This document shows, piece after piece, positions 8,474 to 11,612 of a stretch of 64,000 nt of DNA (position 1 is the stretch's first letter; each line of letters opens with the position of its first letter). Both the position numbers and the translations under genes were made by a program. A model generated the notes under the pieces. That model made no database searches and had not been told where the DNA came from. It was given only the letters and a program-made list of their open reading frames with translations. This stretch comes from Bacteroidota bacterium (GTDB lineage: Bacteria > Bacteroidota > Ignavibacteria > Tepidaquicellales > Tepidaquicellaceae): positions 125,283-189,282 of the forward strand of contig JAFDZP010000001.1 in the NCBI GenBank assembly GCA_018266835.1, written 5' to 3'.

Positions 8474-9379
8474 TTACCTTATAAGATTTCCGATTCTGCC
8501 CCATCTTATTGAACCGAGCAGATCAAAGAAATGTGAGAACGGTATATTTGCATCCCATGACCAGTATAGCATAAACGCCTGTCCTACGATATTCTGTTCA
8601 GGCATAAATCCCCAGAAGCGGCTATCGAGAGAGTTGTTTCTGTTATCACCCATCATGAACAAATAATTTCTTTCAACTGTGTATTCGTTGTTAGGAAGAT
8701 TTACTCCGTCAGAAGAAATCACTCCGCCCGGATTCAGTTGTATTCTATGTCCTTCTTTCAAAGCAAACATTCTCCACTGGTCGAAATTTTTATCGTTAAG
8801 AGCAATCTTATCGCCTTTCTTAGGTACACGAATCGGTCCATAGTTGTCTTCAGTCCATGGAGCGCCTTTAGGAAAAATTCTTGCATTCCTTGTATCAAGT
8901 CCGCGCTGGACTTTATCAAATTGCGAGTTAGGCGGATTCGGGAAAATAGCTCCGTTTACATAAAGCTGCTTATCAACAACATGAATTGTATCGCCGGGTA
9001 AGCCGACACATCTTTTGATGTAATTTACAACCTCTTTTGATTCGAGTTCATCTTTGTCTCCTGGGAAATCAAATACAATTATATCACCTCTTTCAGGATC
9101 TTTAAAGCCGGGGAGTTTCCAGTAGGGAATTCTTATATCTGTGAAAGGAACATTTCGCGGAGTCGTTGCTCCGTAAGTAAACTTTGTTACAAGAAGAAAA
9201 TCGCCGACAAGCAGTGTGTTTTCCATAGAGCCTGTGGGGATCCGGTATGCTTCGAACAAAAATATTTTTATGATGAATGCTACAATTGCTGCGTAAACTA
9301 ATGCATCAAAAAACTCTTTTGGTTTATTCTTCTTTACTTTATTTTTATCTGTTTTTGTGGTCTTTTTTATTAATGCCAT
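8474..9379 (-). CDS. lepB: Signal peptidase I
   Basis: A 301-residue type I signal peptidase that removes signal peptides from exported proteins at the periplasmic face of the inner membrane. One N-terminal membrane helix (residues about 24-42) precedes the catalytic Ser51 in YRIPTGSMENTL (box B). The general base is Lys122 in NYIKRCVGLPGD (box D), and box E is GDNRNNSLDSRFWG. About 120 residues lie between boxes D and E, longer than the minimal enzyme, as in other Bacteroidota-type LepB proteins. ATG start at 9379. It would once have followed lepA directly; a 400-base element with a four-helix-bundle gene now lies between them. Confidence 0.96.
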   Translation of the reverse strand: MALIKKTTKTDKNKVKKNKPKEFFDALVYAAIVAFIIKIFLFEAYRIPTGSMENTLLVGDFLLVTKFTYGATTPRNVPFTDIRIPYWKLPGFKDPERGDIIVFDFPGDKDELESKEVVNYIKRCVGLPGDTIHVVDKQLYVNGAIFPNPPNSQFDKVQRGLDTRNARIFPKGAPWTEDNYGPIRVPKKGDKIALNDKNFDQWRMFALKEGHRIQLNPGGVISSDGVNLPNNEYTVERNYLFMMGDNRNNSLDSRFWGFMPEQNIVGQAFMLYWSWDANIPFSHFFDLLGSIRWGRIGNLIR

Positions 9380-9395
9380 TAAGCGTGTTTTTCGA

Positions 9396-9423
9396 ATTAT
9401 GAGTTAAGAATTATGAATTATGA
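9396..9423 (+). repeat. Left heptamer array of the IVS-like element
   Basis: Four 7-mers in tandem: ATTATGA, GTTAAGA, ATTATGA, ATTATGA. The array is inverted relative to the array at 9781-9808. Aligning GAATTATGAGTTAAGAATTA... with the reverse complement of the right array gives 28 of 33 matching positions. The last codons and stop of the four-helix-bundle gene (read leftward) lie inside this array. Confidence 0.85.
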
Positions 9424-9770
9424 GTTCCACGTGAAGTGAGAATGATGGATGAAATAATTTTTCTTAATTCGAGAGTATCAAAAATTAAACTCTCGTACTG
9501 TTCATTTGTAATAAACTCTGTTTTATATAACAATTCCAACCAGTAAGATGTTTCATCAACTTCTTTTAAAGCTACAGATAGCTTATGGATGAAATCAGGT
9601 TTGGATTCAGCGCTTTGAGATTCACGTACATTTGCACCAATTGAGGTTACACATCTTAAAATCTGCTTTGACATCACATATTCTCTTTTCATTTCCAATA
9701 AAAATTTATATAAATTGACAATTCTTATCGCGAAATCAAAACTCTTAGTTACTACGATACTTTCTTTCAT
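9411..9770 (-). CDS. Four-helix-bundle protein, S23/IVS-encoded family
   Basis: A 119-residue small helical protein matching the four-helix-bundle family first known from open reading frames in 23S rRNA intervening sequences (S23 protein) and related to the Avd protein of diversity-generating retroelements. Landmarks: an N-terminal FAIRIVNLYKFL helix, QILRCVTSIGANVRES, a central helix with DFIHKLSVALKEVDETSYWL, and a last helix ending ELRKIISSI. Its biochemical role is not established; RNA or nucleic-acid binding is proposed for relatives. It sits between lepA and lepB, inside inverted heptamer arrays (9396-9423 and 9781-9808), a layout like an rRNA intervening sequence but here in a protein operon. 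The final residues THNS are encoded by the left repeat. Confidence 0.93.
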   Translation of the reverse strand: MKESIVVTKSFDFAIRIVNLYKFLLEMKREYVMSKQILRCVTSIGANVRESQSAESKPDFIHKLSVALKEVDETSYWLELLYKTEFITNEQYESLIFDTLELRKIISSIILTSRGTHNS

Positions 9771-9780
9771 ACGGTTTCAT

Positions 9781-9808
9781 TCATAATTCATAATTTATAA
9801 TTCATAAT
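9781..9808 (-). repeat. Right heptamer array of the IVS-like element
   Basis: Four 7-mers: TCATAAT, TCATAAT, TTATAAT, TCATAAT, the inverse of the left array at 9396-9423. The array begins 11 bases upstream of the four-helix-bundle start codon and ends 5 bases before the lepA stop codon at 9813. Confidence 0.85.
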
Positions 9809-9812
9809 TCCC

Positions 9813-11612
9813 TTAGTCATCCAGAGATAGCACTGCATGGAATGCTTCCTGCGGGATTTCCACTGAGCCAACCTGCTTCATTCTCTTCTTTCCTTCTTTT
9901 TGTTTTTCAAGAAGCTTTCTTTTTCTTGAAATATCACCGCCGTAACATTTTGCAATAACGTTTTTTCTCATTGCAGAAATTGTTTCTCTTGCAACAATCT
10001 TTGCGCCGATGGCTGCCTGAATGGCAACTTCATACATCTGTCTCGGAATAAGCTTTCTCAGTTTTGAACATAATCTCTTACCCCAGTCATGAGCTTTGGA
10101 ACGGTGAACAACGGTTGATAGAGCATCAACGGGGTCTCCGTTTAATAAAATATCAAGCTTTACTAAGTCAGATTTTCTGTAATCTTTTAATTCATAATCG
10201 AACGATGCGTAACCGCGTGAGTATGATTTTAATTTATCGTAGAAATCATAAACAATTTCACTCAGAGGTAATTCAAAATGCAGATCAACTCTTTTTGCAT
10301 CTACATAATGGCTGTTCACAAATACACCGCGTCTCTCATTTGCAAGCTTCATTAAGTTGCCCATGTATTCAGTAGGAGTAATAATGTTTGCAGAAATATA
10401 CGGCTCTTCTATGTAATCAATTAACTGCGGCTCGGGCATTGAAGAAGGATTATCAACAATGAGAACGTCTCCGTTTGTTTTGTAAATTTTATATTCTACG
10501 TTAGGAACGGTTGTAACAATGTTCAAATTATATTCGCGTTCAAGGCGTTCCTGAACAATCTCCATATGGAGCATTCCGAGAAATCCGCATCTGAAACCAA
10601 AGCCGAGCGCCAACGAACTTTCGGGGACGAAGGATAAAGCTGCGTCATTCAGTTTCAGTTTTGATAGCGAATCTCTCAATACTTCAAAATCATCTGCAGC
10701 AGAAGGATAAATTCCGCTGAATACCATAGGGAGAACTTCTTTATATCCCGGTAATGGTTCTGTTATAGGGTCTTCGGCATTAAAAATTGTATCACCGACT
10801 TTCGATTCGTTCACGTCTTTAATACCGGCAATTAAATATCCAACCTGTCCTGATTCCAGTTCTTTAGTCCGTACCTTATCCATCTTTAATATCCCTACTT
10901 CTTCAGCAACGAACTCTTTATTATTAAAGTAAAATCTTATTTTCTGTCCTTCTCTAAGTACTCCGTCAAAAACTCTTAAATAAATAATTACGCCTCTGTA
11001 GATATCAAACTTCGAATCAAATATAAGCGCTCGTAACGGCTTTTCGTTATTGATTGGAGCAGGAGGAATTCTTGATACGATTGCTTCAAGAATATCTTCA
11101 GTTCCAATATCTGCTTTGGCAGATGCTAAAATTATGTCTTCCTTTTTGCAGCCGATTAAATCAACAATCTGTTCCGAAACAACATCAGGCATTGCGTTTG
11201 GAAGGTCGATTTTATTGATGACGGGGATAATCTCAAGACCGTTATCTATTGCAAGATAAAGATTGCTGATTGTCTGTGCTTCAATGCCCTGAGTAGAATC
11301 CACAACAAGCAATGCGCCTTCGCATGCGGCAAGAGAGCGGGAGACTTCATAAGAGAAGTCAACGTGTCCCGGAGTATCAATTAAATTAAAAATGAAATCT
11401 TCGCCTGATTTTGATTTATACTTCATCTGAATTGCATGAAGTTTAATCGTAATACCGCGCTCCTGTTCAAGTTCCATATCGTCAAGTATCTGCTTGACCA
11501 TATCGCGCTCGGCAACAGTTTTGGTTTTTTCAAGTAAGCGGTCAGCTAAAGTGGATTTGCCGTGGTCTATGTGGGCAATAATGCAAAAATTTCTTATTCG
11601 TGATGTGCTCAA
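9813..11612 (-). CDS. lepA: Elongation factor 4 (LepA), ribosomal GTPase
   Basis: A 599-residue translational GTPase of the normal LepA length. The G domain carries AHIDHGKST (G1, residues 13-21), RGITIK (G2), DTPGH (G3), NKIDLP (G4) and SAK (G5). EF-G-like domains II, III and V follow, then the LepA-specific C-terminal domain with [33 protein letters not shown] and [18 protein letters not shown]. It acts on the ribosome in translation elongation or ribosome maturation. The start is a TTG at 11612, which gives the family-typical N terminus six residues before RNF-IAHIDHG; no ATG competes. The lepA-lepB order is conserved in many bacteria, but here a mobile-looking insertion separates them. 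Confidence 0.97.

Follow-up and report, generated by a model that had tools for sequence, protein, structure and literature searches.

A small S23 gene boxed by inverted heptamer arrays that its own protein apparently reads

Why should a small gene of a family annotated as having unknown function lie between two housekeeping genes, enclosed by short repeats that face in opposite directions? The locus occurs in a window of 64,000 nucleotides from a Bacteroidota bacterium (Ignavibacteria; GCA_018266835.1, contig JAFDZP010000001.1, positions 125,283 to 189,282). An earlier note, made from the sequence alone, described a four-helix-bundle gene between lepA and lepB bounded by two opposed arrays of four 7-mers each. 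It compared the arrangement to the intervening sequences (IVS) of 23S rRNA that are cut out by RNase III, and inferred a minimal mobile or RNA-processed element that spread to intergenic sites. We asked whether the arrangement is real, whether it is peculiar to this locus, and what maintains it.

The cassette between lepA and lepB

Profile searches identified the gene as a member of the S23/four-helix-bundle family, matching Pfam PF05635 (E 2e-27) and NCBIfam TIGR02436 (E 2.8e-31), well above the curated cut-offs (95.9 bits against 33.8, and 107.9 against 24). The AlphaFold model has four helices with a pLDDT of 95, and the protein is 61% identical over 106 aligned columns to BT_0352, whose structure is solved (2RLD). 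Only PF05635 was found in the cassette protein, which thus has no recognised transposase or recombinase. The coordinates of the features are collected in Table 1.

Table 1. Features of the cassette and its host genes, in positions of the 64,000-nucleotide window
Feature	Position	Strand	Description
S23 gene	9411..9770	-	119 aa; PF05635 / TIGR02436
5' array	9778..9809	-	AATT-ATG-AATT-ATA-AATT-ATG-AATT-ATG-AATG; just upstream of the S23 start codon
3' array	9395..9426	+	AATT-ATG-AGTT-AAG-AATT-ATG-AATT-ATG-AGTT; inverted orientation
S23 stop codon	9411-9413		inside the 3' array
Inverted arms	9394-9423 / 9781-9810		90% complementary over 30 nt
Inserted cassette	9381..9810	-	approximate extent
lepA	9813..11612	-	elongation factor 4; upstream host gene
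lepB	8474..9379	-	signal peptidase I; downstream host gene

The arrangement is real, including the stop codon lying within one repeat. On closer reading, however, the four 7-mers of each array are five 4-nt cores (ARTK) separated by four 3-nt spacers (mostly ATG), giving a unit of 32 nt. When the sequence was folded as RNA, the arms were predicted to close the structure (z -3.4).

We then searched 29 relatives with LepB. In the 26 genomes in which lepA and lepB could both be read, there is no S23 gene between them, including the sister species (genome G001; LepA 94% and LepB 86% identical), whose spacer is short and shows no array. The cassette is therefore most simply a gain in this lineage, although the intergenic sequences of G000 and G001 have diverged too far to define its boundaries or any target-site duplication. 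Order-level relatives (G031–G039, loci L252–L262) carry tandem lepB paralogues next to lepA. The closest S23 protein in the sister species (locus L100, 77% identical, array AATT-CTG/AATT-ATG) sits between a thiolase and a pgsA-like gene. The same site in the genome of the window has no S23, only a two-unit array remnant, so that a pure gain at that site is not favored and loss is as likely.

A second site is polymorphic in another genus: the junction between phoH and MBL carries S23 in G080, G214, G152 and G117 and lacks it in G091, G106, G225 and G121, with flanks 91–95% identical between G080 and G091/G106. The S23-less alleles of G091/G106 hold a short array of another word. The whole spacer differs in the S23-less alleles, and clean excision is therefore not shown. 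Other S23 sites are old and syntenic across genera, indicating that movement is rare. A group of S23 genes (L107, L122, L141, L144, L153, L160 and L170) lies next to a tRNA gene in several genera.

In this order and its phylum sample, 122 of 123 cassettes are co-oriented with the upstream gene, or 65 of 66 after orthologous sites are collapsed, and all seven interrupted S23 genes are also sense. The upstream gap has a median of 86 nt, which includes the array, and read-through transcription is therefore likely. The bias is not universal: outside this order it is weaker (69 of 85, with a crude ORF caller), and it is reversed in two loci on plasmids of Anabaena cylindrica and Nostoc (L452, L457), where the S23 gene is antisense between cas2 and cas1 and has inverted AAGTAAA-type arrays.

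Gene-private arrays across the S23 family

An initial scan for AATTATG alone suggested that the other four S23 genes of the genome lack arrays. This reading was rejected once each gene was allowed its own word. Among 96 related S23 genes with enough flank, 84% have an upstream/downstream inverted repeat scoring 30 or more, compared with 6% for swapped partners and 5% for a distal control. The absence of arrays from other copies, which had been set beforehand as grounds for rejecting the idea, was thus not observed. The other copies in the genome use AGTA-TAA/GAA, AGTT-GTC/GCC and AATT-TCA, while one (L096) has a 9-nt type with a weak 5' arm. L096 belongs to a lineage, with L103, L150 and L168, that uses 9-nt units (e.g., AGTGTATTG, AAGGTTCAT) instead of heptamers.

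The same test was passed by 71 of 91 loci (null 8%), comprising 80 from named genomes (Bacteroidota, Clostridia, Verrucomicrobia, Acidobacteria, Campylobacterota, KSB1 and Ignavibacteria) and 11 from viral contigs, and period 7 wins in 160 of 172 scoring arms. S23 genes occur on viral contigs (L404–L414) and in fecal phage records (MT835815.1, MT835590.1), and most of the viral-contig copies have inverted heptamer arrays. All 12 plasmid-borne S23 loci examined (Cyanobacteria, Treponema, Chloroflexota and Bernardetia) have them, and in two Nostoc plasmids both arms are AATTCGC-type arrays with five AATT cores or one base short of it. The layout surrounds most of the S23 genes examined in Bacteroidota, Ignavibacteria, Clostridia, Cyanobacteria, Spirochaetota and Chloroflexota. 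As a control of the method, period 7 wins with a score of at least 12 in 299 of 439 windows near the genes and in 29 of 425 distal windows. GxxExxY genes (PF13366; GxxExxY/PDDEXK_3 loci L204–L233 of relatives) were intended as a negative control, but proved not to be a clean one, because they are themselves boxed by inverted arrays of mixed 8/9-nt period (e.g., CACAGAGNN, CGCNAAGNN). They may be a second family of the same kind. A wide alignment contained no stretch usable for scans of the genome collection.

Array length peaks at 31–33 nt on both sides. Phased on the core, the columns are A.87, A.76/G.23, T.92 and T.59/G.27, followed by three positions with 0.07, 0.28 and 0.07 bits across genes. 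The commonest frame starts at a core start and ends at a core end, 32 nt in all. The phasing was seeded with an ARTK guess, but the array ends were found without it. Some arrays have more than five cores, and a minority of S23 genes have 9-mer arrays or a weak arm. The core is thus shared, while the spacer triplet is private to each gene: in 82 genes there are 35 triplets, and the two arms of a gene agree at all three positions in 72% of cases, compared with 3% for swapped pairs.

Heptamer distance grows with protein distance. A scan of all protein columns, thinned below 70% identity, gave residue 53 against the first spacer base (heptamer position 5) as the strongest pair (z 9.9). Arg53 occurs with a pyrimidine in 20 of 21 cases, and Gln, His or Asn with a purine in 31 of 32. 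Close contrasts are telling: L361 (Arg53, CAC) against L406/L409 (Gln53, GAC), and L372/L392 (Arg53, CAT) against L105 (Gln53, GAT). In genes left out of the discovery set, Arg53 goes with a pyrimidine 7 of 7 times, and Gln/His/Asn53 with a purine 6 of 7 times. We note that the covariation is partly confounded by ancestry, that column 53 was picked from a scan of all columns, and that there are exceptions (L355, L386). On a tree built without column 53 there are six informative independent contrasts, all in the predicted direction, with none opposite and one tie (p 0.03; pooled Fisher p 2e-12). In the AlphaFold model residue 53 lies in the loop after helix 2, and the next best columns, 68 and 75, lie on helix 3. 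This is evidence for direct reading of the arrays, not proof. Both solved relatives (2RLD and 2GSC) are entries with five chains, although five chains per entry do not prove a pentamer in solution.

Arrays without a gene are common in this genome. In 1.2 Mb of its contig C2, on which the unbiased counts rest, there are 24 period-7 arrays, against 0–6 for the other periods from 4 to 15. Most are solo, and the detected pairs without a gene are convergent, as in the cassette. Intergenic palindromic repeats (L048, L051, L052, L057 and L434; translated as LLFKEGVRGW-like ORFs, and TTGGTCAGGAGACCAAC / CTTCCCAAACCCCTGTTTGGGAAG) lie near heptamer arrays in this genome. AGTAGAA arrays give 23 and 24 matches in G000 and G008, the two genomes with an S23 of that word, 7 in G018, 3 in G016, 1 in G002 and none in 35 others. 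AATTAGT arrays are richest in G019, which has such an S23 (169 matches; next highest 21). Gene-less arrays are thus dispersed mainly in genomes that hold a cognate S23. The correspondence is not complete, as G018 has no S23, and the genome of the window has AATTAAT arrays without a cognate S23.

Reader, regulator or RNA element

Our preferred reading, to which we assign a probability of roughly 0.55, is that the cassette is a minimal self-recognizing element, composed of one gene and two copies of the site that its protein would bind. In this view S23 probably assembles as a five-membered ring, in which each member reads one ARTK core plus the following private spacer, so that one ring covers one 32-nt array. 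A 7-nt step would fit a single strand wrapped round a ring better than a B-DNA helix. Because the two arrays face each other, each DNA strand would carry the putative binding word near its 5' end, and in RNA the upstream arm would carry it. By holding its own ends, or those of its transcript, the protein may let the cassette, and gene-less arrays with the same word, be copied or inserted elsewhere by host enzymes. Insertion would favor intercistronic sites read in the same direction, where the promoterless gene would be transcribed by read-through. S23 has no recognizable catalytic domain, and mobility would therefore need a helper yet to be identified; a PF00078 search found no reverse transcriptase in this genome, and reverse transcription by an enzyme of its own was rejected on this ground. 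What the analysis establishes is the layout, the matched private triplets, the covariation of residue and base, the presence/absence differences between relatives, the dispersed cognate arrays, and the sense bias in this order; direct binding, the five-for-five stoichiometry and a single-stranded target are our inferences from these, and a role for S23 in driving the spread remains a proposal. More tentatively, and slightly less likely than not, S23 proteins may be ring-shaped readers with a recognition code of five subunits, five ARTK cores and a private triplet set in part by residue 53, each gene driving the spread of its own word, with or without the gene. This would provide both the origin and the reader of heptamer repeat families in Cyanobacteria, Bacteroidota and sulfur bacteria, and a class of self-recognizing element without its own nuclease.

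The matched arrays and the covariation require a reader but not mobility, and we therefore considered that S23 may be a sequence-specific RNA-binding regulator, ring-like in the manner of TRAP. Its 5' array would then be an operator on its own mRNA, with the 3' array pairing with it as a switch, and the dispersed arrays would be operators of a regulon, their spread being ordinary repeat turnover kept by selection. The position of the arrays next to start and stop codons, the predicted RNA stem, and the proposal by MacGregor of a post-transcriptional reader for TAACTGA repeats upstream of start codons (PMC4679880) agree with this. However, the presence/absence differences and the insertion between unrelated gene pairs look like spread rather than a fixed regulon, and on informal inspection we noticed no common function among neighboring genes. 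We consider this reading unlikely, though the strongest of the alternatives.

The interpretation in the earlier note is partly supported. A minimal cassette that inserts at intercistronic sites agrees with our results, whereas the mechanism of rRNA IVS and RNase III is not supported, and as an explanation we regard it as doubtful. In that reading the arms pair in the transcript over the gene and RNase III cuts the stem, so that insertions are tolerated and selection for pairing keeps the two arms alike; the predicted stem and the sense orientation in this order are in its favor. However, a fuzzy search for one conserved 23S motif found it in none of 432 loci, and an Rfam scan of 16 loci found only tRNA and SRP RNA. 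Mismatches show no bias towards G-U pairs in the transcript (156 versus 139, p 0.35), and deviant units are shared in register only weakly (32% versus 22%). The arms therefore share a word rather than an exact duplex, which favors a common reader, and pairing alone predicts neither a conserved core nor covariation of residue 53 with one base. Gene conversion between inverted repeats plus slippage within arrays, without any reading by the protein, could explain the homogenized units, the concerted change on both arms at orthologous sites and the weak in-register sharing, but it is very unlikely, because it does not explain the family-wide core, the 32-nt length, the covariation, or the dispersed arrays that track the resident S23. 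That the gene landed by chance among ordinary satellites, in a genome where arrays without S23 are common, is ruled out by the swapped-pair and distal-window controls.

Comparison with known systems

The S23 family is widespread, often with several copies per genome, and heptamer repeats have been noted in cyanobacteria and other bacteria without a known function or reader. Our data join the two, and predict which word each S23 protein binds and which residue sets one base of it. We found papers on heptamer repeats and on rRNA IVS but none linking these repeats to S23 genes, among open-licence papers only, so that prior art elsewhere cannot be excluded. If the reading is correct, this is a new kind of minimal selfish or regulatory unit, and a compact, programmable nucleic-acid reader.

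The 23S rRNA IVS of Coxiella and Leptospira share with the cassette an S23-family ORF, a size of about 430 nt, and terminal inverted repeats able to form a stem of about 30 bp; the Coxiella element has a 28-bp stem and is cleaved by RNase III (PMC4990558). The present cassette is not in rRNA, its ends are five-core heptamer arrays with a private triplet, and its processing by RNase III would be by analogy only. Like insertion sequences, it has terminal inverted repeats and sites in relatives that lack it, but no transposase or recombinase was found.

The heptanucleotide STRR repeats of cyanobacteria (PMC2670836) and the TAACTGA repeats of Beggiatoaceae, Cyanobacteria and Bacteroidetes (PMC4679880) are likewise 7-bp tandem arrays, intergenic and strain-specific. 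The former are described as of unknown function and the latter as sites for an unknown regulator. The reverse complement of TAACTGA reads AGTT-ATC, which fits core plus triplet, and S23 genes on Nostoc, Dolichospermum and Planktothrix plasmids are boxed by such arrays.

Avd, the accessory protein of diversity-generating retroelements, has the same four-helix fold (4DWL, TM 0.75; DGR ribonucleoproteins 8UBE and 8UB7), but the genome studied here has no reverse transcriptase domain. REP/RAYT elements (REPtrons) also consist of one gene flanked by inverted copies of a short repeat that is dispersed without the gene; S23, however, has no HUH/Y1 nuclease fold, and its units are tandem heptamers with gene-private triplets. 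TRAP and other ring proteins that bind regularly spaced RNA motifs similarly present a ring-type oligomer to an array of equally spaced short cores, and the S23 system, in which both ring and binding are inferred, differs from them in its five cores at a 7-nt step, its inverted second array and its inferred mobility.
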